A stretch of 64,000 bases of DNA from Sparassis latifolia (Eukaryota; Basidiomycota; Agaricomycetes; Polyporales; Sparassidaceae). Numbering within the stretch: position 1 is the stretch's first letter; each line of letters starts with the position of its first letter. A model generated the notes under the pieces. That model was given only the letters and a program-made list of their open reading frames with translations. It was not told the origin of the DNA and made no database searches. Position numbers and translations under genes: made by a program. The stretch spans positions 2,914,001 through 2,978,000 of the forward strand of contig CM031557.1 of assembly GCA_018466975.1 (NCBI GenBank), written 5' to 3'. Shown one piece after another: positions 26,088 through 60,726 of this stretch.

Positions 26088-28334
26088 GAAGCATCCCACG
26101 ATTACCCATGAATCTTCACGCAGAGGATGAAAGACCGAGAGCGCAGCACTAGCAAATGAAAACGGGACAGATCTGTCTAGTGCATCATATATATGTCGAC
26201 GCATCGACTGCACGCTCCTTGAAGGCGATGCATTTCCCGAAGGCCCTGCAAACGGCGGTGAAATCAGCAATTGCACATTCACTGGGAGACAGTAGAAGCC
26301 ATACCACCTCTCATTGCACTGGCACTGCCGGGGTTTCCTGCATTGGAGGAAACATCTCCTGGGACAACTCGTGCACTGATCACAACATTCTCTGCAGCAT
26401 CTCGGAGACTGCTCTCATCGTCCGACTCGACTTCACTGCCCTCCATAGCCTTCGTTGCATTTCTTGTGGCCGCAACCTGTCCCTTCCACCGCACCGCCCG
26501 TTCAACACCTGTGGCTTCCGCTTTTGCCAGTGCACCTGTCACAGTTGCTGAAAGCATACGGGTCATCTCTGCGACAATGTCAGCCTTGAGGGTGCTTGAG
26601 TTTGTTGAATCCAAGGCAGAACCCGGCGCAGCGTTACTGGCCCCCGAATCAGTATCTTCGGAGGACCTGGTATCTGCGACTGTGATCATGTCATCTAATC
26701 CCCTTGCGCGTCGGTAACGATATGAGATTGCACTCTTTGCTTCCTCCGTCTCGTGCTTCGCCCGCTCTTGGATCATGGCCTCAAAGTTGAAAGCCGATGC
26801 TGTCCCGAAATCGATTGGTTTCAACATCGTCTTAGCACTGCTAGCAGGAGGAATTTTCCGTGGTGTGCTACCCGTCGAATTCATGTTGGGCTGATCATCA
26901 GCTTTAATGGTGCCTTGCTGTCGCATTTGTTCCTGCTTGACGGCATCTAACAAGGCCTTCACCTCATCACGCCAGTCTCTTAAGGCAGATTCTGGCTCTT
27001 CGGGCAATGTATCACTAGTGGAGACAGGTGAGTTCTACATGTCAAACTGTGCTTCAAATACACGAAAAAAACTCACATTCTCAGGGAGTCATGAACAACT
27101 ACTGCCGTCGCTGCAATGCCCAGATTTGTTATTGTCTCATCAACATTGTTTGGGCGCAATTCATCCAGCTCAGAGTCAGTGAGGAAGAGTTTCTCCATTT
27201 GCACAGCATGTGGCTCCAGGTCTGTGACGTCCAGGCTCCCGAATTCTTCGTCCGAGAAATCAGTAGTTGCATTCAGTGCTTGAAGTGCTTCCGCTAAAGC
27301 CGGCTGGTCGACGGAGTTCCCGAGAGAGCTTGTACTGATGCCGAGTATGTACAAGAGTGATTCGGCTTCAGTGTGTGCTACTGAGATGATCTGATTGATT
27401 TCAGAGTCTGGTGGACATGAGGTAAGGTTGACAAGGTCGATTCCGCTAGACTGAAACCAGGAGTGATGATAACCAGAACGATGCGCACTTGCAGCCCTCT
27501 GTGCACCTTTTAGTTTGGTCCGTAATTCTCCGGCCATCAGTAAGCTAAGTTTCGAAATCAAGAGGATCCATTCCACAAACGTGAAGTCCTTCTGAATCTT
27601 GCGTGCACACCCAAACATGTGTTCACAAGTTTCCGTGGAATTCAGCCAAAGCAAAAGTGGAATATCGGGAAAAAAGTCGCGGTGGACCAAGATGAGCAGC
27701 AACATAGCATTGATGAAGATGGAGAGGATATCATAAAGCTCCCGCGAGATGAAATGTGTGTTGACCAAGTAGTATGGATGATCCAGAATGAACTGTCTCC
27801 ACCCTTCAAGGAAGAAACGTCCGCGCCACAGCATTTTGATTCGTTCTTTGTGCGACAGAGTCCGACTCTGTTGAGCATCAACAATCTCGCCAATAATGAA
27901 TAGATAGGCTGCAAGTCCAAGCTCGTCAGGCTCTGTGCGTGAAATGTGCTCAATGACTGCAGAGGAGAACAACCGTGCAGCAGCACGGTCATCCTGCTTG
28001 TCCACGCCCACGATGTCTGTTTTCATCAACGGTGAGTTCGGACTTTGCGCGATCCTTGCCAAAAGAGGATAATCCACCCTCCAATGGCCAAATGGCAGTA
28101 CACGGGCACCAGAGGTGGCACTCCCTCGAGCATTCTTTTTAGCATGCTTCCCATCAGTTGACATCACACATGGTTTGCCGTTGCTAAGAACAGGGGTATG
28201 GAGGGAGAGTCGAGGCATCCCTGGAACAGGATTTTCGAATGACCACAAGTGAATCTTTCCTGCTGCGATCGCCTCATTACGGATATCGTGGGTGAGCCCA
28301 CGCTCAATGGAGACACCATCGACATTATAGCTAA
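26088..28334 (-). pseudogene. piece 2 of the Ulp1-transposase gene (C-terminal transposase domain)
   Basis: The frame enters at the TIR-element junction (SYNVDGVSIERGLTHDIRNEA) and runs through HTPVLSNGKPCVMSTDGKHAKKNARG, where D-G-K-H fits the D(2)H motif of P/hAT-type RNase H transposases. It continues to LNSTETCEHMFGCARKIQKD, where the Glu fits the third acidic residue. A splice near 27,020-27,070 leads to a Ser/Ala-rich region, and an intron (gtgaatgt ... tttgcag) to a short piece ending at the copia site (SWVIVGCF). It has no start of its own. It is continuous with the frame that stops at 50,415 once the 22-kb element is removed. The superfamily call (P/THAP9-like) is inference. Confidence 0.72.
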
Positions 28335-28336
28335 CA
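28335..28336. other. target-site duplication CA, left of the 22-kb element
   Basis: CA immediately before CATCAGC; the partner is CA at 50,415-50,416. Removing one copy plus the element restores codons Leu-His-Ile-Val-Ser-Tyr-Asn of the host gene. Confidence 0.8.
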
Positions 28337-28339
28337 CAT

Positions 28340-28694
28340 CAGCAAAACCCCACTTTTACTTATTTCACTTTTTCGTGGGCTTATTGGTCTTATTTCAGGC
28401 CAAAAGACCGCCAAGAAAACATTTCAGAACAATAAGGGCTACTTTAATGTAATGTAGCTTAATTTCCTGAATCATCTTTTCGACTTGAACCAACACAAGT
28501 CCTCAAGATCGCACTCAAGACCCGATGGTCAGAACTTAAAGTGTGTCTGGATTTCAGGGGCCAAGAACATCAATTGTATAAGACTGAAAAGCCTATATTG
28601 TCAGACCGAGCTTCAGTCCAACAACGGCAACAGATCTGCAGGACTATCATATAAGGCAGAGCTTCAGTCAAACAAGTCAAAAAGATGTGCAAAA
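28340..28694. other. left subterminal region of the 22-kb element
   Basis: A/T-rich and non-coding. It contains cttattt and GGTCTTATTTC motifs like those at the right end, and two copies of gagcttcagtc followed by aacaa near 28,610 and 28,660. Confidence 0.5.
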
Positions 28695-29800
28695 TCAGGT
28701 AGTGTCAACCGTTCGAGCGATCAATGAGGACGACGGCGCCACTGAGGGTAAGGAGTCAGGGGAGTTAACGAGGGGCGGAGCGGGTGACGAGGACGGGGAG
28801 GGGGAGGGGGCGGGCGTGTCTGAGGTCGGCGGCGCTGCCACGGGAGTGAACGTGAGTGACGCGGCAGGCATGGACGTCGGCGCTGCAGCAGGGGTGGAGG
28901 TAACTGCACCAGAGCCGGAGCCAGGCCCGAGGGTAGATGCATTCTGGAAGATATCGTTCTGCGCGCCGGTGCCAAAGTTGGACGTCGAGTCGTTATCGCG
29001 TTGGCTAGTGAAGGCGCTGCGACCATCGTAGTCATCGCTCCGCAGCGACTTCCGTTCATCGTATTCATCGTACATATCGGCACGCTGGAACGGAGATGTA
29101 TTGACAACCAGAGGGAGAACCTGACTTGATTGGCTGAACGGGTTATTGTAACCGCCTTCTTCGTAGGATGATGTATCCGCGCCTGGCGTAGCGTACGGTG
29201 CATAAGGGTCACCAAATCTTCGTGGATTGAGGCCAGCCTCAGCCTCAGCGTCACGCAACCTGTTGCGTTTGAGCTCTTCAATATCCCTGGAACGAGGATC
29301 GTCCTCGGGGGAGTGGAACGCGATTTGCGACAGGAACACCTACACATCTCCGTTAACGATCAGAAATTTCACCCGAGCTGAAGGGAACACACCTTATGAA
29401 GACCAAGGACGATGTCTATCACCTGTAGCCCTAGAACCGTTCTCGCCTGCTCGACCATTTCTCGAGGATCACCTTCGACCACGCACAACGAAGATATCTG
29501 GGCCTTGTACCTCCGCACAAACTCGTCCGGTAGCATAGTCACCTCGAACACGTTCACCGATCTCCGCGCGATCTCTGCCAGTCCCAAGCTCCTGACTTGG
29601 CCCTTGACCGACCGACCTTCCAGCTGGTTTGGCAGCTGTGAGTCGTTGGGGTTGATGCAGAACACATACCACGATTGGGTTTCCTCGAGGGTCTCGAATA
29701 ACGTATCCAGCGCGGTGCGGAACTCGCCCGCAACGCACGGTGCACCACCGCTACCCATAGTACCTAGGGGCTCCTCGTCCTCCCTTTCCTTTTCATCAAG
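28695..29800 (-). pseudogene. myosin-motor chitin synthase fragment, part 2 (end of motor domain and linker)
   Basis: Minus-strand frames give LDTLFETLEETQSWYVFCINPNDSQLP, QVRSLGLAEIARR and VFEVTMLPDEFVRRYK, which are the converter end of the motor domain of class V/VII-type fungal myosin-chitin synthases. After an intron at about 29,340-29,369 the linker follows (DIEELKRNRLRDAEAEAGLNPRRFGDPYAPY and SPFQRADMYDEYDERKSL). It then turns into a Pro/Ser/Thr-rich stretch and stops at 28,695. The membrane helices, cytochrome b5-like region and chitin synthase catalytic domain that should follow are absent. The retained intron shows it derives from genomic DNA rather than mRNA. Confidence 0.85.
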
Positions 29801-29805
29801 GTCAC

Positions 29806-30446
29806 TGTTACAACGCTCCCCACTTGTGGCACGTCTTTTCTTTTTCTTTTCCTTGTTCCTTTTACGTTACCAGACCACATGATCCAACACGTGACTCATC
29901 GGAGCGCAACCTCCGATTCTTTGCCCAGATGTCCAGAACCCCTAGTCTAGGGTTACACCGGATCCAACTCCGGACCTTCTTCTTATCGCGCATGCAAGAC
30001 GTGCATGTACGCCTCATCTTTACCTCGTTCTGATACACGACTCGTTATCCCCATTAGTACTGATTATCTCTCACGACCTTACTCAGCTTTCTCATACATA
30101 TTACTTCCTCGCTGTTACCTTGCCCAGATATCGTTTCACCTTATCTAGCCAATGAACGATCTCGCATTACTGCGTAGTACTGCGGATACCTTTTGTATAA
30201 GTAAACGACCTTGTCGAGCTGGATCCCCATCTCGACCTGGTTACCATTAAACCAGCTTTTCACTTGCCTTTGACTGAGATCGACCGTCAGTAGCAGATAG
30301 CTACTACGAGTCATAAGAACAAACTCTGATCGACCTTCAGTGCGAGGACATCGCCAGAAGTGTCACTTAAACGGACTTGTGTCTTAGACTAAGACCTTGT
30401 CTCGTGACGACTCGACTAGACGCTCGTGTTTCGCTGCCGCGTAACA
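29806..30446 (+). repeat. gypsy 5' LTR (641 bp)
   Basis: Compared with the 3' LTR there are about six T/C differences, all T in this copy, and about nine single-base length differences, nearly all one base longer here and in short homopolymers. Confidence 0.95.
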
Positions 30447-30818
30447 TTAGGTCGAGATCATTACTACTCTCTGTGACTTCCTAGAGTCTAACAACGAACT
30501 ACCGACCGGACCGAACCTTGAAGACTGAACGATACACCCGATTCGATTGCTAAAGCACCGTCTGAGATTACTCTGTAATCGAGGTAGCTGAAGGGATAGA
30601 CTGATCACTCATCTTCGGAGAGGGGTCTGTCCGAGAGACCAATAGGCCGAGGAGGCTGAGGTAATCACTCGAGCAATCAGCAAATAGGTGTACCAGTTTG
30701 AAGACAGAAGACACTCTACGGGCTTGTTAGCCGACGACGAACGAACCCACTTAGTTAAGGACGGTGTGCAGTCTACGTGTAGACGTAGGCCACACAGGGG
30801 AATTTATCCACGCTGGAT
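30447..30818 (+). other. gypsy leader between 5' LTR and gag
   Basis: About 370 bp without a good frame. No tRNA-complementary primer-binding site was recognised directly after the LTR (it starts ttaggtcgagatc), so self-priming or an unrecognised tRNA is possible. Confidence 0.4.
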
Positions 30819-35960
<5,142 letters not shown>

Positions 35961-35977
35961 AGGAGAAGAAACCCGGA

Positions 35978-36154
35978 ATGACTACCACGACGATTTTCCT
36001 CATCATCTTCTTAATCGTCCTCCACTGCACAACCCTCGCTTTTCTTTGGATCACCCACCGAATCCTTATCAGACGACTTGTCGAACACACACTCTTCACG
36101 CGAGACAGCCCGCACGCTAACGGCTGGGGTGATCAGAACGATGCCTGGAACTGA
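35978..36154 (+). CDS. small single-helix membrane protein frame 1 (gypsy accessory region)
   Basis: ATG at 35,978 opens about 58 residues starting MTTTTIFLIIFLIVLHCTTL, one long hydrophobic helix followed by a basic and polar tail. It lies between the chromodomain end and the 3' LTR, the position where envelope-like or other accessory frames occur in some Ty3/gypsy elements. It overlaps the end of pol. It could be chance. Confidence 0.3.
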   Translation: MTTTTIFLIIFLIVLHCTTLAFLWITHRILIRRLVEHTLFTRDSPHANGWGDQNDAWN

Positions 36155-36290
36155 TCAGGCAGCTCTTATCTCTGTGGGAACACTCTTTATCGTCCAATGG
36201 ATTTTCATCTATTTGATTATTACCCGGATCCACGACATTCTATTTCACATCACAGATAACCGCGATCCCCTTAATGACCGAAAGGTATAA
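36141..36290 (+). CDS. small single-helix membrane protein frame 2 (gypsy accessory region)
   Basis: ATG at 36,141 opens about 49 residues with one hydrophobic helix (AALISVGTLFIVQWIFIYLI), slightly overlapping frame 1. The close pairing of two short helix-bearing frames is notable. No family is recognised. Confidence 0.3.
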   Translation: MPGTDQAALISVGTLFIVQWIFIYLIITRIHDILFHITDNRDPLNDRKV

Positions 36291-36316
36291 AAAGAGGAGA
36301 AGACGATATATCATCA

Positions 36317-37095
36317 ATGCCCACTTCCGCTATAGACGACCTTGTTCACAATATACTCGCTGAAGTCGCCTCCACAATTATGAGCATACCCGCATCGCCT
36401 ACGCTTGTCAATGGAGTACCCTCTCGAGCACAGACACCCTTTATCCGCGCCTCATCGCCCACACCTTCTATCGAACTCAGTCACGCATCGGACGAACAAG
36501 AATTTGCCACACGCCTGGTCTCGCTATCCGTGTTCCTGTCGACTTCACAGATATCCTCGCCGCCTTACGAAATCGCCCGCAAGATCGATAAGCGGTGGTT
36601 TCCATGCAACGAGCATTAGAAATGGTCGAGTGGATGCAGACGGCCAGACAAGAGCTTATCGCAGCAGAGGAAAGGACGAGTAGAGCCCGAACCAGAGTCC
36701 ACTCAAGTCTGGTCGCACGCGCAGTACGGTCACCGTACAGCACAGGAGATTTGAGGAGCATGGGGACGAAGACATCGGACACATCCTCGGATACACCACT
36801 AATGGAATACCCGCATCCACTCCTCGCCGCCGCCAGAACCACCCCGCTCGACCGCCTTCCTCGTTCGCACGCACTCCAGTGGGCGATCTCCGTTATCCCA
36901 ACCATCTTTCTCGACCGCATCCACTTCTTCGCGCCGCAGTCATCCCTACAGGGATGGACGTATCCCGAACAAGGATCGCGAACCAGCCGTGGACATGCTA
37001 CAGATGTGGAGGAGATCATTATGTCCGCGACTGCCCCGGCGACGATGAAGATCACAATATTTCTTGTGGGACAAGAAACGTTAGGACGGAGCTGA
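36317..37095 (+). pseudogene. gypsy accessory frame 3: Ser/Pro-rich protein ending in a CCHC-like knuckle
   Basis: ATG at 36,317 (MPTSAIDDLVHNILAEVAST) opens a Ser/Pro-rich, gag-like frame. Frame changes near 36,600 and 36,870 lead through a helix (MQRALEMVEWMQTARQEL) to CYRCGGDHYVRDC near 37,005, a C-x2-C-x3-H-x4-C knuckle one residue shorter than the retroviral CCHC spacing. It runs up to the 3' LTR. This is either a second gag-like gene or a gag duplication; it is not similar to the element's own gag at the motifs I can see. Confidence 0.4.
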
Positions 37096-37727
37096 TGTTA
37101 CAACGCTCCCACTTGTGGCACGCCTTTCTTTTTCTTTCCTTGTTCCTTTTACGCTACCAGACCACATGATCCAACACGTGACTCATCGGAGCGCAACCTC
37201 CGATTCTTTGCCCAGATGTCCAGAACCCTAGTCTAGGTTACACCGGATCCAACTCCGACCTTCTTCTTATCGCGCATGCAAGACGGCATGTACGCCTCAT
37301 CTTTACCTCGCTCTGATACACGACTCGTTATCCCCATTAGTACTGATTATCTCTCACGACCTTACTCAGCTTTCTCATACATATTACTTCCTCGCTGTTA
37401 CCTTGCCCAGATATCGCTTCACCTTATCTAGCCAATGAACGATCTCGCATTACCGCGTAGTACCGCGGATACCTTTGTATAAGTAACGACCTTGTCGAGC
37501 TGGATCCCCATCTCGACCTGGTTACCATTAAACCAGCTTTTCACTTGCCTTTGACTGAGATCGACCGTCAGTAGCAGATAGCTACTACGAGTCATAAGAA
37601 CAAACTCTGATCGACCTTCAGTGCGAGGACATCGCCAGAAGTGTCACTTAAACGGACTTGTGTCTTAGACTAAGACCTTGTCTCGTGACGACTCGACTAG
37701 ACGCTCGTGTTTCGCTGCCGCGTAACA
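37096..37727 (+). repeat. gypsy 3' LTR (632 bp)
   Basis: Ends CGCGTAACA at 37,727 followed by the target duplication GTCAC. A purine-rich run (ttaggacggagc) just upstream may be the polypurine tract. Confidence 0.95.
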
Positions 37728-37732
37728 GTCAC

Positions 37733-39210
37733 ATTCCTTCAACGTCGGCATCCGCTTAATCGTGTTTTTCCTGCGCATCGACGGCGCGCGCATTGGCTTA
37801 ACCGGTTGCTGCGCTGCGACGATGGTATCCTCATTTCGAGGATGGGCCTGAGTAGCAATGGCCTTCGCGGAGTACAGTCCCCGGACGAAAGGGTTGATGG
37901 AACCTGAGCCATCAGCTGAAGGAGCGTCGGTTGTGCTCGCAGATGCACCGCGCAGAAGAGAGACGAAATCAGGATCTAGGGCATCCAAATCCCTATCGAG
38001 GAATTCGTGCGACGAGTACGTGACGGGGCCGCTGAAATGATTGATAGTGAACGTAGGGAAACCTAGAGCGATCCATCGCGCTCCATCTTGAAGGACGGTG
38101 ATTGCCCCACCGCTTCGCGAACGACTCGCCACGGTGTGGTCCGCCTTCTCGGCTGGCGCCGCCTGGTCATCCATGATATGAATAAGACCACCAGGCTTGT
38201 GCGCAGCAGGCGCAGACACTCCGAGTTGTCAAAGCACGCACCTGAGGAACGGCGGGAGATGCCTCTGTTGTGTACTCGCTGACATGACGCCGACGCAGTT
38301 TCTTCTGCTTGAAGTTCTGCAACCGCGGCAGTCATTCAATGAATTGACGCAAAACTGATCCAGGAAGCAGCTGCTGAGTCGCGCAAAGGCATTGGGTTGA
38401 TATGCTCATTCAACCATGCAAATAGGAGGGAGTACAGGGACTTTGCGAGTTCGTCTCGGTTATCCGAGGCACCGTCGGGATCCAGGAAGACCGTACACAA
38501 TTCCTTTTTCAACATCTTCGTCCTGTATGATAGCGCCGCTTCCAGCGCTGCCGGCTGCACGCCCAAGAAATCTGCGACGATATCGAGGACATCCGTGTTA
38601 CGCACGACGGCGGCATCTTCGTTCTGGGAGCGATCCATGGAACTCAAGGTTACCGAGATGGAGGATGGCGGCAACCAACTGGCACGTCTGCGCGACATGT
38701 CGTTTCGAGAATCCCATGTTCTTCAACGCCATCTTCAACTGATCAAACCGCACGGCGTCCTCGTCCCGGCCACCATGGGCATGTGATCCCGCAGCGGTGC
38801 ACTGTCCGAGATAGCGATACTTTGTCTTCTCTGAGAGGTGCAAGTGCTGCCGCTCCTCCGGAGAAGCACCGGCAACGAGGTGGTAGAAGATATGAAAATT
38901 CCGCTCTCCAGAAGGGGCCCCAGCGACGCGGCTGCGCTCGAGGTACTAATCGAGAGTCTTGATGCCACAGAGCCTACCACATTCCGAAACTCTCCAGGAC
39001 AAACTCGGCCGCGGGCACCTGGTTTGCCAGCTTTGAACCCTTCTTCTAGAGTGTGAGAATGCTGAGCTGGTCTTGATGGCGAGTCTGCGGTTCTCCAACT
39101 TGCCGCTGCCTGTCGATGCTGCAAATCGGTCAGTAAGCCGGTCGCGAACAAATCGAGCAGGAATAGCTACCCATCCTGCAAGAGCACCAACGGCTCTATG
39201 CACACGACAA
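37733..39210 (-). pseudogene. myosin-motor chitin synthase fragment, part 1 (motor domain)
   Basis: The minus strand from about 39,130 gives a damaged P-loop region (TGSGKLENRRLAIK, where Ser is usual after GSGK), RNFHIFYHLVAGASPEERQHLHL-like pieces near 38,850-38,900, MALKNMGFSKRHVAQTCQLVAAILHLGNLEF near 38,700, NTDVLDIVADFLGVQPAALEAAL near 38,590, KKELCTVFLDPDGASDN and LYSLLFAWLNEHIN, then KPGGLIHIMDD, GFPTFTINHFSGPVTYSS and DALDPDFVSLLRG near 37,960-38,190. Several frameshifts separate these. The motor continues at 28.7-29.8 kb after the gypsy element. The N-terminus before the P-loop is missing. Confidence 0.85.
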
Positions 39211-41933
39211 CGTCGACCGTGGTGTGCTCCTGCTCAACTCCGCATGCGCGTTTGCACATCCAACACGAGCACCTTGTAATTCGGCGTGGTGTTGAGCTCC
39301 AATAGCATCTTGGGAAACTGCGCCGAGATCGGTGTCTCATCTTTCCGCGGTCGGACGTGTCGTCGGGGCCATGACGAGCGAGCTCCCGCTGGGCGAGAGC
39401 CCAGACGGCTTGCGGGAGACCGAGTGGGGCGACGGCAAGAGCGCGGGGGATGCGGGGCGGCTGAGGAACGTGTTCATCATAGGCGGGATGGGCAAGATGT
39501 TGGACAGTGTACAAACAAAGAATACTCAGAAGTTTACACACTCACAGCAAAGAGCTTTACATGCGCCCACCCATGAATACCCAGGTTTACACACGCGAGC
39601 TCTTGCGTGGCATGCCCGCTGGGTGGATTGCTTTGCACGTTAGAGGCGTAGTCAAACAGCGAATACGCCGGGCGTACGTGACGAAGCGTTGCTATTCTGC
39701 CTCGAGCGGATAGTCTTGAAGGGTCTATGACAGTATCAGTTAGACAAGAAAAGGGAAACAACAGATGCGAGTGCAGATGCTTACCCATTCGACAGACCTT
39801 TGACCTCTGTCTTGGACGACACGCGACACAAATGACGAAGGCAAAATACTGGGCGCAAGGACAGGGAACACGGCTCGGAGCGTGTCATCCGAACGCCATA
39901 TGTCGCATAGAGACTTCACCGCCCGATGGGGACACGCGAAGCGGAAGCCGTAGATGTCACGACGGAGTGCGCGAAGACATACATTATATCGACTGTCTGG
40001 GTGCAGCCCGAGCACAGGAGGGGCGGCTTTGCAACAGGCACTTAGAAGAAGAGATTGCATTTGTCCGTTATGTTCACGGGCGTTTCGAAATTCGAGCAGA
40101 AACCCTTGTATTCAACATGATCTACCTACGCCTCATCGCCTGCCAGAAACATTAGACTACATGCACTTTGAAGCACCTGACAGGAAGAGACTCACATGTT
40201 GGAAAACCGCCTGACCCTTGCGACGATCCTTCGGCCTTTTCAAGCAGCACACCCCACACCACCTATCGACCGTGTATCTCATCGTAAATGGATCCGCACA
40301 TCTCACGATTCTACCAGAGACGCGCTGCGCTAGCGAGCACTCAAAATACTTTGGCTTGCGAGGCGGAGAAGGGGCTCCGCACTTGTAGAAATGTTCGTAT
40401 TTGTAGCACATCTGTTGCAAGATCAGCAGGTCGAACTACGAGTGTGAGATGGAAATACTCACGGCCAAGCGGTGAGAGGTGGGTGTGTGTTGAGATGGGT
40501 GGGCGTCGAGAGGTGGATGAGTGTCGAGAGGTGGGCGCGCGTCGGGTGTGACCTTGCACATGTCCCCATCACAGATACAAGCTTCAACGTACAAGCTCGG
40601 CTTGCTGCACTCATCGAGCTTTGACTGCCTGCTGCCAATCCACCTCTCCTAGGTTGACTTTGTAAATTGGTCTTTGTAGCTCGCTGGGCCATGAGATGGC
40701 TGACATTCGATGCGCTACGATCCGATGTCGTACAATCCAACGCAGTGGAATTGGCTCTCAGCGACAGTTGTGCATCCTCCCACCAGTCGCCTGGCATGTC
40801 CAAGAGTAACGAGTCGCCGTCGTTCATACATCGGCCTCGCCTCAAATGTGGTGAGTTCAGGGCTCGACTTGCACGAGCTACAGCTGGGGAGATGTGATCT
40901 GACAAACAACGCGGGATCGGCGACAGATCGAACATTTGCTCTTTAATCATTGCAGTAGCATCAAGACGATATACATTGATGTAGAATCTCCGATCTGCGG
41001 GGCTGCAGAAGCCGTAAGGATCGAGCCGAAGACTCCTGCACCATCTTCGTCGTCTGCTTGCGACTTTGGTGCGTCAAGAAGGCCCATTGCATTTCTGCGA
41101 GCGCGTAAACTGATGCTTCGGTATTTTTTCCATAGCAGTAGGAGTACGGTAGCGGGTTCTCCAGGATGATGAGGTACGGGCTCTTGGTGATGACCTGACA
41201 TCCTCCATGCACTTACGAAGCAGAATGCCTGTCGGCACGTCTGAGTTGCCCTTGACATCCACCCGGCACGCGATGTCATGCGTGCCAGAAACCGGAGTCG
41301 CTGTGCTTGCACCAGGTGGTGCAGTAGTGGTCGACGTACTTGATCCTGCGGTGAGCGGCGAGGTGCCAGATGGCGCGATCAGCACCGCCGCGATCAGAGC
41401 GCTGTCGTTCTCATCGTGAAGTATGAGTAGCGGCCACGGCATCCTCTCCTTGATTAGGGGAGGGGAAAGCACGTTGCGGGGTGCGAGACGGGGAAGACTT
41501 CTTATGCTGAGATAGCGAACCAGAGTCTCAGCTTGTCCTGTCGTCGGGGCACACGGGAGTACGTGCGTGAGCGCACACAGACGGGGATCTGACAGGAGCG
41601 CGAGTCTGTGGACAGGAGAGCGTACAGGAGGAAACATGAGCGCGGGAGGGCAGGGATGTATAGATGAGTATAAGCAGACATAACCCTGTGGACGAGGAGT
41701 GCTCGTACGGGCAAATATGCATCTATAAAATGGAAGGCACAACACTTTGTTGATAGGGCGATTTCCGGGGCATTCACTTGACCTAGCCAGCGGTCCGCGG
41801 TGAGCTTGAATCTTCACCTAACCGATACACGACATGTGGGCAAGGGTGGGCTGACTCGGAGAAAGTTAGGGCGAGGACGCTCTGAAGGCGTCCGAACGGA
41901 GGTAGGCACGAGTCTGCAGGTCCAAATGAGGAA
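39211..41933. other. region of possible captured gene fragments, no intact gene
   Basis: Minus-strand stretches look protein-like without a complete gene: QFPKMLLELNTTPNYKVLVLD near 39,260-39,330, joined directly to the truncated myosin P-loop; GTHDIACRVDVKGNSDVPTG near 41,230-41,290; and KSPYLIILENPLPYSYCYGK near 41,120-41,190. I recognise no family. They fit a mosaic of host gene pieces inside the 22-kb element but could also be eroded coding DNA of one gene. Confidence 0.35.
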
Positions 41934-44900
41934 TCAAAACAGTGTGTGAAAAGCATGATGGTCGGCATATTTGTTCACATAAAACTGCTCAAAAACATCC
42001 AGAGAATGATATTCTGTTAGCCCCTCAGGTATAGGGCCATTGAAAACCGGGATCAAGTGCGCCGCGCGTAGGATAGAGTCGGTATGAATTACTGAGATGC
42101 TGCCATCATCCGTCCGTGGCCTGACGATCCACATGCCGGTGTCTCGATCTGGCTGCTCATCGACCAGTTCGTACCGACGAATGAGCGCGCACGGATACTG
42201 TATGTAGCGAAAGCGGAAGTTGAAGAAAAGTTGGACACGCGCAATATCAAAACTATTGACTCCAGGATCAGCAGACGGGCTTTTGATGAATACGCAATCG
42301 AAACGCGGCCCAACGCCTCGCCAGGAGGGAGTAGCCCGAATGTACTCGCGCCGCATACCGCCAATACCGCTGGGATCACTGGGGGCATAATATGTGGCGG
42401 CCGCCGAGTACACGACGTAGACCTTGTCCTGGTGAAGGACCTCTGGACATGCGTCAATCGGAATGGTGCCAGAAATGTCTCGGTTAGGATGTAATTGACC
42501 ATATAGAAAATGGCGCAGAGCCGTAGGCAAGTGAGGTTGGTCGATCTCGTCGGCGAGGGCATAGATGGACCGTGAGTGTTGCCGCTCTGTGTGGGATGCA
42601 TCAGAAATTCAAACATGTGAAGAAATGGTTCGGAAGCACTTACGGAGGGTCACTGCTAACTTAACGTACTCCTTCGATCGCGGACCCGGAACGATGTCGT
42701 CCTCTCTTTGGGCGGTGGGACCTGCATCGGCATCCGGGTTTGGCATGTCGTTTTCAAGGCCGCGAACTGTACACTGTATGAAGTGAGCATACCAGACATT
42801 GTTTAACAGAAGGACGTACTATGGATGTTCATCGCGGCAACGAGAGCTGATTCAGCCAACATCCCGCGACTGGTGAAATCGACGCGTGCAGCAGCTAGCT
42901 TATCAAGGCGCTGGTTCGTCAGCAGCATCTGCCCGAGCGCCTTGTAATGACTAGAACGTCGCCAAGGCTTCTTGACAGCAGTGATATGCCTCGACTCAGT
43001 AATGGAAGAACATAGCCCATTCGGGGCACCGAACGCCCATATGTGAGCCCGATAGTGGACAAGTGAGTGTTGCCGGGGAAGGGAGAACCCACTGATCCGA
43101 ACTCCACAAGTAGCAAAGATTTCTCTATCACGATGAAAGCGCTTGAGAGCGTGATCCAAATCGGCCAGTGTCTTCTCGGTGTGAACATCGCGCCTAGCAA
43201 GGTAACAAAAGTCGAGGAACGACCGTAACGCACGAACCATTTTGCGAGGCACATAGTGTGAAATGGCGGGCAGATACACCTGGTTTAGATGTATCTCAGT
43301 GCCGAACATGCATACAAGGTGGTAAAACAAACCTTCATCAATGCTTTCGAGTCGTCTCCTGTCCATTGCTTGAAGCCCCGGCCTTCAGGAAACCGTCGCA
43401 GATGGGAGAATGGAGGAACGACGGAAATACTGAGCATACGAAGTATCAATACATGTACTAGACAGTGGTGAAGTGGACAGATTACCGACGATCAATGTCC
43501 GCCAAAATGGATTTGGCAGTAGCGGGACTGTACTTGCTGTTTATGTATTGCTCTACCCAATCGACGAGGTGATCTTTGAACGTTCCTTTGATAAGCTGGT
43601 GTAGGAGGTCGGGAGATAGAAGTTCGTGAATGTCCGCGCGTGGAAAGTCATTAGTGAAAGGCTGTGAAGTAGTCAAGTCAGCATACGAATAGACAGGCAT
43701 CTTCGGAGAGCAGCGGGAAGGCATGAGCTGACAAGAGAAGTACGAACAAATGGCGCACGACGGTCGTCGCGTGGGCAGCGTATGGCGCGTGCGAGAGTAT
43801 GTTATGTGTCTCTCCAAGGACATGTAGTGTTCGCACGTCCTCAGCTTGCTTAGCAGCCCCATGATGCATCAACACGCGTTCCAAGTAACATACGTACAGC
43901 ATGCAATGAAAAGGAAGCTACAAAAAGAAGAAACGGATGACTCACCACTATGTCTCCCACCAGTCCGTAATCGCGCCATAGAACGTCCAGGCCCAGTTCT
44001 TCAACTAATACCTCAGTGTGCGCTCGACTGCGTCTTCCGCCCTCGGAACCGTCGAGATTAGAGCTGTGTGCAGTGCATCTACAAAATGGTCAGCGAAATG
44101 TACAAAAGCGAGAAGGTAAGACGTACTTCGGACACCACCCTTGCACGATGCAGGCAAGGAGTGCCTGCTCCGGATAATCAGCAATGTACGGACCGAGGCC
44201 GTAGATGACACGCCTGAAATGACCGTCTGCGCAACGGGTCACTTCTGGTGTTGTCATACCGGGCTTGAGTGGTTGCAAGATCTTCGAAAGTGATGAATGA
44301 AACATCTGGCGCGGAACTTGCGGAACTGAATGTCGTCCGCATACTTCCTGTCAGCTATCGCGGGGAAATCATAAGTTCTCTGATATTCCAGAAATGCACT
44401 ACAGTACTCACTCTTTGGAATTGCCAGAAAGCCTATAAGGGCGACGGCATTGCGATGCGCCCGTCGCACATTATTGCGCACGTTACCGATCGACATATAA
44501 AGTGGATAATATTCATTTTGACCGGTGGCTACGGAGATGGTGGTCTTGTCGCTGCCGAGGATGATGGGAACGAACATGGAGCCGTGTGTGTCTGGGTCTT
44601 GCGTGATTAAGTCCTGAAACAATTCTAAGTCAGTACGCGACTCGGAATGCGACCACGAAGTATTTCTCGTACTGCTTGCTTCCATACCCAGTCGCCAGAC
44701 ATGAAGTCTTGTAGGTGGCGTTGATGCGGGGCTTCACGTTCGAACTGGCGCATGACACTGTAATCGATTTCACCATCAAAATCTGGATTCGAAAGCATGT
44801 TCTGGGCAACAAGATGGGGATCTCGATACCAGACATCATAATCTGCATTCATCCACGCTGGCGCATTGTTGTCCGGCTTCGGGCCATTGTACGTCATGTT

Positions 44901-45942
44901 GAAACTTTGCCATTTCACCTCGCCGAGTAAAGTGTTGTCAATACGTTGATATAGGTCTTTTGCATCTGCAAACGGAGCTTCATCGCCGTGCTTGACGAGA
45001 GATGAGGCCCATAATCGACAGAGGGCATCGATGTTTCCGCAGACATTTCGTCGCGGGCAAAGAGAAGCTCGGCGGTCTCGAATTCAGTCCGATTGCGATA
45101 CGGATACCAATCATCGTGAGCTGGTGCCTGTGGAGGAGGAGGAGGTGCATCTCTTGGGAGGTAGTTGCCAAACTCATCGCATGGTCGTCCTGCAAAACAC
45201 AACTTACATATCAGTGTTTGTCCAACGGACACAGTACTGATACATACCATAAATGTGGGGGTGGTTTTGAATGATTGGTCGTGTCGGATCTTCGGCATCA
45301 GGGGACATGCTAGTACGCGATGGAGTATCTCGCTCGTCACCCATGGAGTGGTCGCCATCGCTATCCCCACCGTGTGCATGATGCGGGTTAGGTGATCCTT
45401 CTAAAAATACTTGTGCTCAGCATGGCATGTCATCTGTGCGAACGAGCATGGTAAACAAACTGTAATCTTCGTACAGATCCCTCCCCAACTCATCTACGCC
45501 CTCGAAGTCCATATGGACGTCGCGAAACCCAAAATTGTCTGCATGCTCGAAATCGTAGTGGTCGGGCGCATCTCCGACGGCATCTGCATCGGCGCCCGAG
45601 CCTGCCCTCTCTTGAACATGAGGAGCTTGTGCATCTGGGCCTACACTGCCGTCGCGTCTGTCTTCAAGGTCCGCGCCACTGCGTTCATTCGATCCTTCAC
45701 CTTGATGGTCTCGGCTGGCTTTATTGGTGTCAGTACACGAACAAATAAAATATAGAGCCTGAGTGCGCACTATACTGTTGTAACGGCAAAGATATCGGAA
45801 TCCGAGCGAGAGGATCTTTCAGGTGGTAGGTGCGGGCATGCTTGCTATGTCCGTTCTTTGCCTTGAACTTCATTGTACAGCCTGGCGCACGACAGCCGAA
45901 ACGATACTTGCTGGAAGCTTTCGAGGCTCGCGGGGAAGACAT
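41934..45942 (-). pseudogene. Plavaka-type DNA transposase
   Basis: The start is probably the ATG at 45,942 (MSSPRASKAS). A C2H2-like finger follows (CRAPGCTMKFKAKNGHSKHARTYH spread), then an acidic region, then the characteristic order PCDEFGNYLPRDAPPPPPQAP, DDWYPYRNRTEFETAELLFARDEMSA, WQSFNMTYNGPKP, PAWMNADYDVWYRDP, MSGDWVWKQ, HGSMFVPIILGSDKTTISVATGQNEYYPL, GNVRNNVRRAHRNAVALIGFLAIPK, GMTTPEVTRCADGHFRRVIYGLGPYIADYPEQALLACIVQGWCPK. The C-terminal domain is GGMRREYIRATPSWRGVGPRFDCVF through NKYADHHAFHTLF. Introns split it. At least two one-base losses (near 45,035 and 44,313) break the frame. The family belongs with CACTA/EnSpm-related fungal transposases. It is a candidate mover of the TIR element that contains it. 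Confidence 0.85.
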
Positions 45943-46213
45943 TGAAAAATATATAGGTCGGGGACTTGAACGCCTGCGAGACATAGAGTCTGGTTAGACT
46001 GTCACGATTTTTTGAAAAAAAAAAATACAGACAAATCACTTTAAATGGGCCGCAGCGGAGGGATGAAGACGAGGTACTAGTATGGGGCAGAACTTCGCGT
46101 CCAAATTCTTCTAAGTCGTAAGCGCTCGTGACCGTCCCGCCTTTCCTAGCCGAATCAAACCTGTGACGTGTCCAACTCTTGCCAACGGACTCTACTACAT
46201 CTCGCTGTCTACC
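45943..46213. promoter_or_regulatory. short divergent promoter between transposase and accessory gene
   Basis: 270 bp separate the start of the Plavaka gene (-) from the ATG of the plus-strand gene. It contains an A-run (about 46,010-46,023). The arrangement suggests shared regulation; this is inference. Confidence 0.4.
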
Positions 46214-49200
46214 ATGCCTGTTGCCACTCGAGCTGGGAATGCCGACAAGCACCCAGGCCGCGCTGAGCTCAGTAAGCGCAGGTCCAGCAAAGAAGTTCAA
46301 GCGGAAAAACTAGCCAAAGCGAAGGTGAAACTGGACAAGGCAGAGTCGGCTGCAAACTCTGTCGCGCGCATTGCGATGCTTGAGGACAAGATGGCAGCCA
46401 CCGACAAGGACACTGAAGATAACAGGGTGAGGGCGCTGCCCGAATCAAAAGCGACTCGCAAGCGTATGTACTACGGTCATCATTGCGGCTGATGGAGCTG
46501 ACTTCGAAGCACGCGGGGCCCTGCAGGCGCAAATGAGTCAAAGTCGAAATCGACGTCCAAACCTCAGGAGAGCTCACCGCTCTCAACCATCGACTCGTCG
46601 GAAGCCGAACAGCCGCCTAAGAAGAAGAAGGCGACCAGCACCAGGGGAAAAATACAGCAGGCCCGCCAGGAGGCCGCCGCCGCCAACAGCGTCCTGGAGC
46701 TCTCTTCAAGCGACACTGAGCAGATAAAGACAACCGGAAAGAAGAAAGGTAAGGGCAAGGGCAAGGGCAAGGCGAAAGCGAAAGCGAAGGCGAAGGCGCG
46801 CAGGTAGGTTCCTTATCGATATCGATGTCCGCATATGGATAGGATCTCACTGCTTTTCGCCATCATCACGCCTCTCTTCCTATCTATGATGGTCATCCTT
46901 GTCCTCTCGGAAACAACGCTGTTCTACTTTACCTTGGCCTGCAGCTCCTCCAGTGAAGAAGAGTTTGGAGAAATGCTCGACTGGTATGCAAAGGTTCCAA
47001 GTGGCTGGAGCAAGCGGCCCGGGGACGATGGGGCCGGCATTCGCCCTTCTACCATGACCGCGGCCTCAGCTGCCATTTCGAAGAAGACCAAGAGTGCTCC
47101 CTCGACTGCTCCCTCGAGCAAGAGCGCCCACTCGAGCAAGAGTGTTACCTCGAGCAGGAGTGTTACCTCGAGCAAGAGCGCCCCCTCGAGCAAGAGCGCC
47201 CCCTCGAGCAAGAGTGTTACCTCGAGCAGGAGTGTTACCTCGAGCAAGAGCGCCCCCTCGAGCAAGAGCGCCCCCTCGAGCAAGAGCGCCCACTCGAGCA
47301 AGAGCGCTCTCTCGAGCAAGAGTACTAGTTCGAACGAATCAGCTCCCCCGACCAAGGTCATTTCCTCAAGGAAGGATGCTTCTCGTAAGGTTACGGACGC
47401 CAAAGTAGACGCTGATCTTCTGCAGAACAATATTGTTGTGGCCGAAAAGTCTATAGTGAGTGACGATGAGGACGTTGAGCGACTTCACGCCCTCTCCAGT
47501 CCTGTCAAGCCTGCACACTTTCGGGCGATGAATTCAGTGCGTATTTTTTTTGTAATCAAGATGTTTGCTCACCGTCTCAAGGGCGCCATTGACATCATGG
47601 AGGTCGATCCTGACGATCGTACTGGTATCGTTGCCGGCGCGTCCGGGTCTTCCCGCCCCAAACCAAGGCCACGGTTAGCCCCCTTGACGGCGGAGGTAGG
47701 TATTGGTGAATGAATGCCGTACCATCACTGATAATTTGCACGTACGGAAGGTAGATGCCAATGCAAACAATCCTGATATCTCAGTCGACGCAACCCCGGC
47801 GCCCAACAGCATTCGATCGACGAGCAGTGTGAGTGATCACCGGCTCGTATTGATCCTGTTGACGAATGCGGACCTACAGATGAACGTGGCAATTGCAGAC
47901 AAAGGAGTAAGAGAACAAGCCAAGAAGCGCAAACGGATGGCAAAGGTAATTAGCAAATTGTTGGTGATGCTACGCGCTCACCAAGTGGATTAGTTGGACG
48001 AGGATTCAGAGGATGAGGTCAAGGTGGAGCTGCACGATGACGGGCCGAACGCGGAGCCTGATGATGACGAGATGGAGGTCAAGACAGGGCATTTTGGGGC
48101 CGATGATGATGAGCCTGATGGCGATGAGCCGGGAAAGCGCAAGGCTATAGTGAAGAATGCGGACCTCCCTCCCGTCGCACTGAAGAACGATCGCTGGCGA
48201 CGTCGGTTCCTGCCGACGGTCGACGATATGTCGGCACTCTCAAAAATCCGTGGACCATTGATGAAGAGGAATTCAGAAGGGTGCTCGAGCTCATCTGGGA
48301 CAAGGTCTACGGGAAATTGGGTGTGGAATACACGGATGCAATCCACGTCATCACCCGTAGTCTGGTAAGTCCTTTTCCATAAAGTTGTTCAGGCCAGAAA
48401 ACGTCTGAAAACGTTACAGTGCATTCAGCGACTGTACGAATGGCGCTCCACCTTCGGCTCCACTGCCATCAGCGTAGTCGAAGCATTCTTCAGCACAACC
48501 CCGAAGTATCTGGATTTCGCCAAACGTCCGTCTTTTGCGAAGGCGTTACTCAAGTTGTCCCGCTTTGCATTCCTGTCAGCCAAAGGCGAGAACCGAAGTG
48601 TAAGTACTAATGCCTCTCGGTCAGAGAATAGCTTATGCTGATTACACCATATCAGAATTTCATGGGCCTGTTCCGGTCTCCATTCATGTTGCGGACGTTT
48701 GCCACCCATCTCGCAGCAATTGAGGGTGCCATTGATGTTGAAGGATTGTACTCCGAGGGATCCGCGCTGACCGTGAACAAAGCTATTGGTGCACTGGGCC
48801 TGACGGGCGCCACAGTAAGCACTTAACAGTCTGTTGTTATTATTGCTCATGTGTTCACAGGTTAAACGCAGCCTTACGCTGTACAAGTTTCTTGCCATTG
48901 TCTACAAGAAGGGACGACCGGTACCTGCGAAGCGCATGTGTGAAGACATGAACTCTGCTGCGGACGTTGATGCTGCGAAGCCAACTGGATTCACGAATTC
49001 TGGCTGGGGTCATGAGACCAAATTTTTCGCCGTCTCCGCACAGAATCTCTTAGCTTCGAGCTTGGCCAAGGTGGCCAAGGAAGGAGCAGAGGTTTTATGG
49101 ATGACGCGTGGGCAGCGGCGTGAGGTAATTGTTGTCTCGTCAGATGATGACGGTGACTATCTTGTTGACAATGGTGAGAGCGATGAGAATGATGACTCGG

Positions 49201-49265
49201 AGGATGGGAAGGTCAGAAACACTGAGAAGACCAGTAACTCGGAGGATGGGGAGACCTCTGACTAG
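46214..49265 (+). CDS. multi-exon protein of an Agaricomycete-expanded family (DUF6532-like C-terminal half)
   Basis: The start ATG gives MPVATRAGNADKHPGRAELS, a short N-terminal region seen in multi-copy mushroom genes, then a Lys-rich coiled coil. Introns restore one frame: CGC-AAC-type joint near 46,465-46,533 to NESKSKSTSKPQ, and an AG-C joint across 46,807-46,940 to SSSSEEEFGEMLDWYAK. A Lys/Gly basic run and an 18-bp-repeat Ser-rich domain follow. The C-terminal half (KNADLPPVALKNDRWRRRFLPTVDDMSAL, then LYEWRSTFGSTAISVVEAFF, NFMGLFRSPFMLRTFATHLAAIEG, LYKFLAIVYKKGRPVPAKRM) is compact and helical. It ends in an acidic tail (stop 49,263-49,265). Function unknown; nuclear basic/acidic tracts suggest a DNA- or chromatin-linked role. 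The DUF6532 comparison is tentative. Confidence 0.65.
47095..47330 (+). repeat. coding 18-bp minisatellite (Ser-Ser-Lys-Ser-Ala-Pro type)
   Basis: About 13 tandem copies of an 18-bp unit (tcgagcaagagcgccccc and variants ending gtgttacc) encode SSKSAP/SSRSVT. Variant units alternate in blocks, indicating duplication of multi-unit blocks. All copies keep the frame. Confidence 0.9.
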
Positions 49266-49365
49266 GCTAATGAGTCTTGAATGGCATCGCGCGGGTTTAC
49301 CAGTCGCTTCCAGTCGCTTTTCTCGTTTCTGCATTTGCTTTGCATCTGTGCGTCTTTTGGACTAA

Positions 49366-49470
49366 CGACATTATGCATCTGTGGATATTTTTGGACTAAT
49401 GACCTTCTGCACCTTATGACATTATGCACCTTATGACATTATGCACCTTATGAAATTATGCATCTTATGT
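49366..49470 (+). repeat. short tandem repeat of about 17 bp
   Basis: Three to four copies of cttatgacattatgcac and near variants in the 3' flank of the accessory gene. Confidence 0.75.
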
Positions 49471-49682
49471 CCCTGCATAGCTTATGGCATCTTATACTCT
49501 GAATGGACTTTCTTCCTTACATATCTGATTGACTTGCAAGCTTAACAGATTTCAAGGCAGGATAAAAGAGCTACTCTCAGAGAAATAAGCTAGTACAAAG
49601 CTCTGTTTGGAAAATGGCCTTATGTCTCTGAGAATGGTGTTATGTTCTTATTCTCTGTATAATCTGAGAGGTCTGTAAGATT

Positions 49683-50414
49683 GATCAGGAAAACCGAACA
49701 TTTTCTTAGGGACTTATTCAGACTTCTCAGTCTGACAAGGCATCAGGAAAACCACACTTTTCCTTAAAGGGGCACTTAAATAACTTAAATGGACTTATGG
49801 TCCTTATTTAAGGACATAAGGACAAAAAGGGCCTAAGGCATATTCCCTGAGTGTCTGAAATTCGACTTATTTGAACACTTATGGCCTTAAATAAGGGTTG
49901 TCAGACCCAAAAGTCTAAATAAGTCTATAAGAGAAAGTTGGGTTTTCCTGATGCAACACTTATTTAAGACTATAAGAATTCAAATAAGTAGCAGTAAGTC
50001 CACTTTCAGATACTCATATAATATGGCTTAGGCCCTTTTTGCCCTTATATCCTTAAATAAGGACCACAAGTCCATTTAAGTCAGTTAATTCCCTCTTGAG
50101 AAAAAGGAGGGTTTTTCTGATAGATAAGATATCTGAGTTGACTATAAGAAAGATCAAGAGACATAAGATCACTACAAATGATGAAATACAATTTCTAAGT
50201 GTAAACATAAGAAATGTCTAAGATCACTACAAACGAATTAAGAACATGGAGATTGGTCATTAAGGGCACTAAAAGAAATATAAGGACAGATGTAAGTTTG
50301 ACATTCAGGGAATATGCATTATGGTCCTTAGAGACTTATGACCTTATATAAGGACAATAAGACCAAAAAAGTGACAATCTAAGATCAATAAGATAAAGTT
50401 GGGTTTTCCTGATG
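49683..50414. repeat. right subterminal repeat block of the 22-kb element
   Basis: Contains several partial or inverted copies of the terminal sequence: forward at 49,683 (gatcaggaaaacc) and 49,741 (catcaggaaaacc), reverse at 49,953 and, degenerate, at about 50,096-50,120, and the terminus at 50,414. Between them are repeated CCTTATTTAAGG-like palindromes and ggacaaaaagg motifs. A segment near 50,010-50,120 is an inverted copy of 49,741-49,850. The 49,741-49,953 pair lacks matching flanks, so it is more likely internal duplication than a clean MITE insertion. Confidence 0.7.
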
Positions 50415-50416
50415 CA
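50415..50416. other. target-site duplication CA, right of the 22-kb element
   Basis: Partner of 28,335-28,336. Confidence 0.8.
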
Positions 50417-53400
50417 ATGTGGAGCCCACGTGCTGCGAGTTTTGAAGCTACTTCATCGTGCCATTTTCGGAGCTCTGGACGAGCAATAGAATTGCCCAGT
50501 GGCATCGTTGCAATTAACTTTGGTGGGATATTCGGAAGAGGGATCACAAGGACCCATGCACGAGTCTGGAATGAGTGTCCATGTAAGCATCTGCAATGAA
50601 TAGTACACAATAAGAGCCGACGAACCTTCTCTGCAAGATTACCTTGTGCGGCCTGTGCCAGCTGGACTAACTCCTCATAATTCACAAAAATGTCAACCTT
50701 GCCATGCATTCCACCAAGCCGCCAAATGGTGCCGTCCTTGTACGATCGTAATGCAGCCACAATCTTCGTATCATCTGCTGCAAGAACAAAAGGACCAGTA
50801 TAGCTCAGATCCCTTGCCCACTGTGCAGCTGCGTCAAAATTTACATCAACGATGTCGGGCTGAAAGCGTCCGTGCTTTGCACGCAGTTGACTGTGTAAGA
50901 GTCAATAACTGCGTATGTGGGTTAGAATGACATACACGTACCCCATACTACGCAAGGAGCGTCCACCAAACTCAGCCTGAACCACCCTATATGCACGTGG
51001 AGACAGCAGTGCTAGAGTCGTACAGATCGCATCATATCCAGCATCGTACTTCATGTTTGTGAACTTCTTGCCACGCCGTATGCGGTCCTCCATCTTCGTA
51101 ATCGTGTCAAGCATCCCAAGGAATGCCTCCTGTCCATCATAACGACCAGCTGCACCTCTCTTTGCAAAAACCAACCACCTAGATTTGCCTTGGTCCTGAA
51201 GTAGGTGTGAGATCCCAGACCAAACAACGAAAGCAAAGACTTACCATTTCCATCAGCTCTTTAACATCAGCATGGCGTAAGTAAGCTTCACCGGCAAGTT
51301 CATTGCGGTAGGACTTGGGAGTGAACTTGTCATTACCATGGCGAGGTCGTTTTCTCCGCAATGCATTCCTGAAAACCTTATTGCGCAGCACCTTCATGCA
51401 CTCACAACATGGGTGAAGTCCACCACTTGATGGCATGTCTACCGCCACCTTCGAACACCTCGCAGAGAAAACTGTGCCGCTGGTGTGATGGTTCAATCAG
51501 ACAGCTCTTGACCGCTCCGCAGCAATGACCCGTTTGATCAGCTGCATTTGTGTAAGTGATGCCCCGCGTCTTGATCGATTGTTGGCATGCTGTACCTGCA
51601 GGTAAAGAATAGAGCGGGGAGGTGCACCACCAGACAGAACAGAAGTGCGCGCTAGGTAAGCAGATATGCGTGGATCCTCTAGGGAACCAAGGCCAGGACA
51701 CGGCACCTTGATTCCAACCTGGCTGTCCGGAATCTTGCACACCAAAAAGTGCTCTATGGAGGGTTGGTCACCCTTGTCCCTCTGGCACTTCTGTGATTTG
51801 CGATGGCTGTGCCATCGTGCTATGTCATTGTCGGCCCGTGCAGTCACAAATGTTCCACATCGCCCACAGCGCACTGTACGACGATCATCACGGTTGAACT
51901 CTACCTTCTGATCCTCCCGTAGTAGCTTAGCTTGAAACTTGAGAAAGCCAGAGTCTTCCCACCATGCTGGATCATCCTACGTATACAGGTATCAGAATAA
52001 GTCAATGTTCTTTCCTATTCTGGCTATTACGCACCGGCTTCCTTATGACCATCACCTTCTTCGTCTTGACTGGATTCGACACGCTTTGCTTGAGTATCAA
52101 CCGTTTATTTCCCATGACCAACAGCTTTCGTTGTCTTGGCCTGTTAGATTTTGGCTTACGGATGATCTTTGGATGGCGGTTCCCGGATGATATCGATTCA
52201 GAGTCTGTCCTTGCATCATTGGCACTGGCTTCTCCTGTACTTACACTTTTGAGTGCTAGACACGCGAGTTCAGGTTCTATGATTGTCCGGCCAATACTTG
52301 ATATCTGTAGATGGACATGAGAACCACTTGCTTCAGAATTAATGCTTGGGACATACCTCTCGTCCGACTTCGATACATCGCATATAGTAGGATGCTCGAG
52401 TGACTCCTGGATGATCTGGAAGCCAAGATGCGACAGATGGGATAGCACGTCGATGAATCGAATTCACGGTGGCTATACCGCATGAACGATTGTCCTGCTG
52501 TAGAGTCACGGACAGCGGGTTTGGATTTTCGCTCCAAACCTTCCCTGGTATGTGGATTTCCAGCCACTTCATCACGTCCTCCATAATCACAGCCAGATGG
52601 TACCCTGTCACTGAGGGCTTTGAATCACCGACATTAATGCACTCTTCCGTGACATCAACTTCGACAGATATCCAGTGAACATTGAGTACGTTACATGGCA
52701 GTAGAAGCTTCTTGACGTCGCCTGACCTCAACTTCTCCCCCCAGAATTGTGATGTATTTGCATTCGGATTTGACATCGTCCCGCAGAGCGATGTGTCGGC
52801 AACCTGAATATGTGAATCCACTCCCGCAATATCCATTTCCGTGCGAATGACGTCCATCAACGAGTCAATTGCTTCATCATCCAGCCAGAGATTCGAGAGT
52901 ATCGAAGCAAGCCTAGTTGAGGTGACTGCGCCATTTTGTATCGGTGGGAAACCAGACAACCATGGAGTTGTCATTACTGATTCCTTGACATTTGCGAGAA
53001 ATACTGGTGTCCATGCCTCCATCTCTGCGGTTTGTTCCACCCAGTCCAGGTGACGCTGCCATAACTTTATCTTCTCCACGAGTGCACTCCCCCACTTCCA
53101 CAGGCAAACACACCACAATGGTAAGAGGACATTCTCCTTGACCGGATGCTGCACGGAATTAAATCCATTCTCTATAGCCCTTGATAGAGAAACATCGAGT
53201 GCGACACATAGATGTGATGGCGGAAGCACGATGTCCTCAAGTGATGTCAGAACATAGGTGGGATCCTCCGTTGAATACCACTGTGAGACGGGCAAGCTAA
53301 TTTTTCTGCTTCCAGGTCGCAGCGGTACCTTCATACTAAGAAGCTCGCTGACAGGCAGAGACACAGGAGGTTTTAGCAGGCATAGTAGATCCGCCGGAGG

Positions 53401-53556
53401 GTTATTGTTGACTTCCATGTCATCAAACGAAGACTGAATGGCTACTCTGAAGATTTCTTCATACTTATTATCTAAGCATAACTGCACTTGTAAGTTGTAA
53501 CTACTACTGTGAAGCCCAGATTCATCTCGGAAGTCGGTACAACGAATGGCGTTCAA
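50417..53556 (-). pseudogene. piece 1 of a Ulp1-like protease-zinc finger-transposase fusion gene
   Basis: The N-terminal part is a C48/Ulp1-type cysteine protease: VHWISVEVDV holds the catalytic His, the Asp follows in INVGDSKPS, and the Gln and Cys lie in LQQDNRSCGIA (about 52,470-52,680). Clean GT-AG introns then join it to a basic linker (52,000-52,320) and to DDPAWWEDSGFLKFQ, followed by a BED-like Cys/His finger (RCGRCGTFVTAR ... RWHSHRKSQKC, 51,780-51,870). The transposase N-terminal region (NDKFTPKSYRNELAGEAYLRHADVKELME, SPRAYRVVQAEFGGRSLRSM, SYTGPFVLAADDTKIVAALRS) runs to RGLHIA at 50,417, where the 22-kb element starts. An in-frame TGA at about 51,497-51,499, where a Trp codon would fit, suggests inactivation. 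No ATG is seen at the 5' end; the LINE inserted upstream may have separated the first exon. Confidence 0.75.
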
Positions 53557-53818
53557 AAACCTCGTGCAGTTCGGTAACGTCGGTACGACTCATCGCCGAG
53601 ATGTAAGCTGAGATCGCTACTTTTGGGGTTTTGTCCTCCAACATTGAAAATTTCGGTCCGTATTTGGGGGGTTATGGGACCTAAGAGTTGTGCCCGAGAG
53701 GGCTCAAATTTGGGGATTTGGATCGAACATTTCGGCCTCCGAGGTCGATTTTCGGGGATTTCGGGATCGGGGCTCGAAGTGCATTTGCGGTGGTCCTACT
53801 AAAACCCCCTTTATATTA

Positions 53819-60724: not shown

Positions 60725-60726
60725 TT

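Follow-up and report, generated by a model that had tools for sequence, protein, structure and literature searches.

A 22-kb PlavakaB element carrying a myosin-motor cassette within a mobile-element-like gene of Sparassis latifolia

Results

The window (the whole 64,000-nucleotide stretch of Sparassis latifolia DNA that was analysed) contains a minus-strand gene split by a 22-kb segment (Table 1). This segment has inverted ends of the form CATCAG(C/G)AAAACCC and is flanked on either side by CA, the left junction at 28337 reading ..GCTAACA/CATCAGCAAAACCCC and the right junction at 50414 reading ..TTGGGTTTTCCTGATG/CAATGTGG, with a flank that starts CAATG (slashes mark the junctions). The terminal inverted repeats (TIRs) agreed closely over about 14 bp and weakly beyond, with 69% identity over 100 bp compared to a mean of 45% and a maximum of 65% in 100 shuffles. 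Joining the minus-strand flanks with one CA removed gave a single open frame, ..ASKLAARGLHIVSYNVDGVSIERG.. (..LRKWHDEVASKLAARGLHIVSYNVDGVSIERGLTH..). A join keeping both CA was also open in one frame over the stretch tested, but without the residues common to relatives of the gene.

Table 1. Positions in the window of the element, its contents and the interrupted gene.
Feature	Position	Strand	Evidence and remarks
Whole element, PlavakaB	28337..50414	.	22,078 bp; CA/CA target duplication at 28335-28336 and 50415-50416
Left end (TIR and subterminal)	28337..28445	+	79% identical over about 109 bp to left end C10:3620518
Right end (TIR and subterminal)	50274..50414	-	80% identical to right ends C10:3664995 and C10:2959613
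Interrupted gene, upstream part	50415..53589	-	Ulp1 peptidase match below threshold; may contain the first catalytic Asp
Interrupted gene, downstream part	26279..28336	-	Open frame after joining; alignment to relatives
Plavaka transposase gene	41937..45400	-	PF18759 at 44628-45083 (103.3 bits), 44257-44733 (107.1 bits), 43485-43868 (66.4 bits)
Second gene	46115..49262	+	Diverges from transposase; extent by eye; window 47437-49185 67% identical to two C10 loci
Captured cassette, part 1	28780..29805	-	ORF 29372-29848 matches myosin head; directly joined to part 2 in C2 and C10 copies
Nested Ty3/gypsy-type LTR element	29806..37727	+	7.9 kb; LTRs 641 and 632 bp; GTCAC/GTCAC flanks
Captured cassette, part 2	37728..41656	-	Myosin head matches in ORFs 37701-38228, 38339-38722; three stretches absent from C2/C10 copies
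213-bp MITE of PlavakaB end family	49741..49953	+	97% identical to C3 copy L021; inside older inverted MITE (49684-50121)

Protein relatives of the interrupted gene were compared from the same 41.4-Mb, 22-contig genome only. A locus on C3 (L050), which has no insertion, was identical in 126 of 338 alignment columns, without a stop and gapless across the joint (..HEHQIKVVSYACDGATIER..). A more distant locus on C7 (L052), also free of an insertion, was identical in 71 of 288 columns, with one stop upstream of the joint and no gap there. The initial annotation had looked to such empty relatives to decide the matter, and had named as evidence against an insertion any that failed to continue from the 50.4-kb part into the 28.3-kb part; both loci run from the one part into the other across a gap-free joint, which argues for the insertion.

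The name 'Ulp1-transposase gene' given earlier did not hold up as well. The Ulp1 match of the upstream part was below threshold in Pfam (16.8 bits; cut-off 20.7; E = 0.0064), and no Pfam family was matched by the joined remainder; none of the Pfam results for this gene marks it as a transposase. A PDB sequence search with the joined protein returned weak matches only (nine up to E = 10, the best with E = 0.025), none of them named a transposase. The transposase part of the name is therefore kept at the level of plausibility: Asp (DDTK), Asp (DG) and Glu (TCEH) positions, read by eye, are common to the interrupted gene and L050, and from these shared positions a DDE transposase is plausible. 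The interrupted protein may resemble P-element transposases.

Inside the element, the extent (from about 45400 to 41937) and several exons of the transposase gene were placed by eye on the three-frame translation. All three of its ORF matches to the Plavaka transposase profile PF18759 exceed the Pfam cut-off of 26.3 bits, and together they cover profile positions 1-169 and 287-325 of 325. At 45037-45039 the gene shows a one-base length difference from both C10 relatives compared, and here its frame changes (at about 45038). This apparent frame break suggests that the present copy of the element may be immobile or inactive, unless it is a sequencing error.

Pfam scans of the ORFs in the second gene found no convincing domain. 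Sub-threshold Pfam matches to LPMO_AA14 (16.4 bits; cut-off 27) and EIPR1 (14.1 bits; cut-off 54) were set aside. No TET/JBP domain and no recombinase domain was found in the ORFs scanned within the element, a scan that an intron-split recombinase gene could escape. Rfam gave no matches at gathering thresholds in 26000-56000.

Own-genome DNA searches with the left, middle and right parts of the element, of which the best candidates only are reported, located relatives of the transposase at C10:3636128-3640148 (75-81% identity) and C10:2953681-2955934 (72%). Best candidates for the second gene lie on the same side of each transposase, at C10:3662122-3663858 and C10:2956732-2958475 (67%). The identities of the ends in Table 1 extend over 109 bp on the left and 141 bp on the right. 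The ends at C10:3620518 and C10:3664995 have TC/TC flanks, lie 44.5 kb apart and enclose a transposase and a second gene; if they are partners, a pairing based on flanks and homology, they would delimit one element of 44,478 bp. Over 75 bp, identity was 80% between left ends and 88% between right ends compared to 71% in each of three left-right comparisons, and over 100 bp it was 79% and 84% compared to 67-69%. Over 140 bp the preference of the left end shrinks, to 74% with the C10 left end compared to 71-72% with the C10 right ends. For the second C10 relative, a search of C10:2936400-2940400, C10:2946400-2952300 and L055 yielded no left end. The best own-genome candidates included no further copy with this cassette between ends of this kind.

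The exact end pattern CATCAGSAAAACCC occurs at 282 places in the 41.4 Mb (139 forward and 143 reverse) and its backwards control at none, in keeping with the initial annotation, which had judged a chance origin unlikely and had pointed to other copies with the same ends as a check. We sampled 37 close opposite end pairs from the first 100 of the 282 places listed. Two of these measured 407 and 601 bp, and all others 213-224 bp. The 2-bp flanks were equal in 30 of the 37 (TG 6, TA 6, AA 4, CA 4, TT 3, AG 2, CG 2, CT 1, TC 1, AT 1) compared to 9.5% of mismatched pairings, in which left flanks were set against right flanks of other copies. The seven pairs with unequal flanks include L033, whose end was placed five bases off in the 100-bp and 140-bp end comparisons and correctly in the flank and 75-bp comparisons. 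A match at the third base as well was seen in only four of the 37 pairs, which sets the duplication at 2 bp. All 74 arms of the short copies were closer to the right end of the 22-kb element than to its left end (mean 76% and 71%, respectively, over 75 bp), which suggests, but does not prove, that these miniature elements (MITEs) were made from two right ends.

Several further members of this end family were observed. The younger of the two nested MITEs (Table 1) has unequal 2-bp flanks of its own, GG and CA. In the window, a second CATCAGGAAAACCT end pair at 55173-59061, 3.9 kb apart with AA/AA flanks, is probably another element of the same family, and a further MITE at 60511-60725 (73-76% identity to four copies compared) has one changed terminal base and unequal flanks. 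In the C3 relative of the interrupted gene, another MITE (L050:938-1160) precedes the first aligned block by about 20 bp.

The cassette gave myosin head matches above the Pfam cut-off of 33.3 bits in its part 1 ORF (46.3 bits) and in ORF 38339-38722 (37.4 bits), and one below it in ORF 37701-38228 (26.3 bits). A myosin-motor chitin synthase may be its source. At C2:1430414-1434175 and C10:1500161-1503949 the cassette is contiguous, in pieces 92-97% identical to the window, and lacks three stretches present in the window (160, 529 and 498 bp); to each other, these two loci are 96.8% identical across a 6.7-kb stretch. The C2 copy has ORFs in shifting frames, as in the window, and the best candidates for further copies (72-86%) lie on C6, C7, C10, C11, C13 and C15. 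The carried part is thus a multicopy, fragmented-looking cassette rather than a recent duplicate of a single gene with clear function. No duplication or inverted ends were recognised by eye at its borders (28780 and 41656) or around the three extra stretches. The weaker C6 match (86%) runs from 28713 and thus crosses the 28780 border, which disfavours a simple capture there and suggests that the cassette may have been shortened in the C2 and C10 copies. Separately, one part of the cassette (window 39115-39493) matches C11 with 83% identity at four positions about 11 kb apart (1000359, 1011356, 1022343 and 1033346), perhaps a long tandem array.

The LTR element between the two cassette parts has gag, reverse transcriptase and integrase zinc-binding matches (Pfam). 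Where the window has this element, the matching pieces at the C2 and C10 loci overlap by 5 bp (C2:1433161-1433165 in the C2 copy), so these loci are the empty-site counterpart. Its LTRs (29806-30446 and 37096-37727) differ by six substitutions, all transitions, and nine single-base gaps; the gaps are all confined to the right-hand LTR, perhaps a sign of assembly indel errors. This separate retrotransposon makes up about 7.9 kb of the 22-kb element, and about 14.2 kb remains without it and one copy of its duplication. The transposase, second gene, gene parts and nested retrotransposon listed in the initial annotation were all recovered, the extent of the LTR element being corrected to 29806-37727.

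Three other repeats lie in the neighbourhood. A short distance downstream of the interrupted gene, window 20980-26054 contains a minus-strand copia-type LTR element with 300-nt LTR stretches 99% identical and gag, GAG-pre-integrase and RVT_2 matches; a VasL match on one of its ORFs was set aside (16.9 bits; cut-off 27.3). Inverted repeats of 193 bp and 102 bp (98-99%) at 53816-54862, upstream of the interrupted gene, are possibly a foldback element. A long inverted repeat (56227-57031 and 63299-64000; 86-95% in pieces) reaches the window's end.

Discussion

The TIR family, not recognised in the initial annotation, is PlavakaB, a kind of element already in print. The accessible part of that description (PMC12730594, 2025) places PlavakaB among the DNA transposons of Agaricomycotina and separates PlavakaA (TGT..ACA termini, 2-bp duplications) from PlavakaB (CATCA..TGATG termini, 2- or 3-bp duplications). 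The 22-kb element has termini 5'-CATCA..TGATG-3', 2-bp duplications (CA/CA here, TC/TC at the C10 relative, equal flanks in most of the short pairs) and a PF18759 transposase in three ORFs. By these three features it belongs to PlavakaB, as a well-resolved case of a kind already known and not a new one.

The 22-kb TIR insertion with its 2-bp duplication is confirmed, and its reading as one TIR element gains support from the flanks, the relatives of the interrupted gene, the 2-bp rule in the short pairs and the second, TC/TC end pair. We consider it very probable that a PlavakaB transposon inserted as one unit at a CA in a mobile-element-like gene, carrying the cassette and receiving later nested insertions. 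The abundance of MITEs in the family, some of them nested near the right end, could instead suggest a composite, in which two separate MITEs flank an arbitrary 22-kb segment and either moved with it as one or bracket it by chance. We regard this as very unlikely. Over 75 bp, the left end has 80% identity to the C10 left end, and none of the 74 MITE arms exceeds 75% (mean 71%); for the right end, identity is 88% to the C10 right ends and no higher than 79% (mean 76%) to the MITE arms. The transposase and second gene also stand in the same order as in two relatives.

The gaps confined to one LTR hint at indel errors, and an assembly join or chance rearrangement might have set two gene halves beside TIR-like sequences. 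Against this, the flanks match, two relatives cross the joint without a gap and ends of this kind recur elsewhere, leaving such an artefact barely credible. Large size and cargo would also suit a Starship-like giant element or a KDZ element. Starships are defined by a tyrosine recombinase captain gene, and none appeared among the ORFs scanned, within the reach of that scan. KDZ elements (Zisupton, Kyakuja) would carry a KDZ transposase and duplications of 7-8 bp, namely 8 bp for Zisupton and 7 bp for the Kyakuja families described in the accessible part of PMC12730594, whereas the window has 2 bp and a PF18759 transposase. The chance that either is the right assignment is close to negligible.

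For the PlavakaB insertion, the following course is proposed, based on what is known of the family. A member of the CMCT clade with DDE-type cut-and-paste transposition would have entered the intron-bearing, mobile-element-like gene as a single unit. The PF18759 transposase would have cut both CATCAG ends and joined them to the target, where a CA cut with a 2-nt stagger would leave, after repair, the 2-bp duplication. The element carries the fragmented myosin-motor cassette and has itself received insertions of the Ty3/gypsy-type element and of MITEs from its family. The nesting places the 22-kb element later than the gene it interrupts, the LTR element later than the cassette and the young MITE later than the older one. 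The cassette may have been taken up before or after the insertion into the gene.

Compared to published PlavakaB (PMC12730594), the termini, the 2-bp duplications and the PF18759 transposase are alike. The sizes (22 kb here, and 44.5 kb between the ends of the relative), the myosin-motor cassette, the nested elements, the lack of a TET/JBP domain in the scanned ORFs and the many MITEs with two right-end-like arms were judged without published sizes or sequences and may not be real differences. EnSpm/CACTA elements, also of the CMCT clade, share CA..TG ends, short duplications and a related DDE transposase, whereas the EnSpm families described in the accessible part of the same source have CAC..GTG ends and 3-bp duplications instead of CATCAG and 2 bp. 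Plant Pack-TYPE elements likewise carry a gene fragment between TIRs and are, as far as the accessible part of PMC8903248 describes them, non-autonomous, whereas the 22-kb element also holds a transposase gene, and the gene part within it is multicopy and fragmented in its own right.

Its size, its cargo and the MITEs with both arms like the right end may be new in a modest way. A broader reading, in which PlavakaB here forms a giant cargo-carrying cut-and-paste class (22-45 kb) that spreads gene cassettes, with MITEs from two joined right ends, is tentative and in our view rather unlikely. The locus provides a well-controlled PlavakaB insertion, with insertion-free relatives, a 2-bp duplication, 37 short relatives with flanks, a second end pair and a nested order of events, and it agrees with the recently published end signature (PMC12730594). 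It points to MITE formation from one end and the carriage of gene parts as matters to test in this family.
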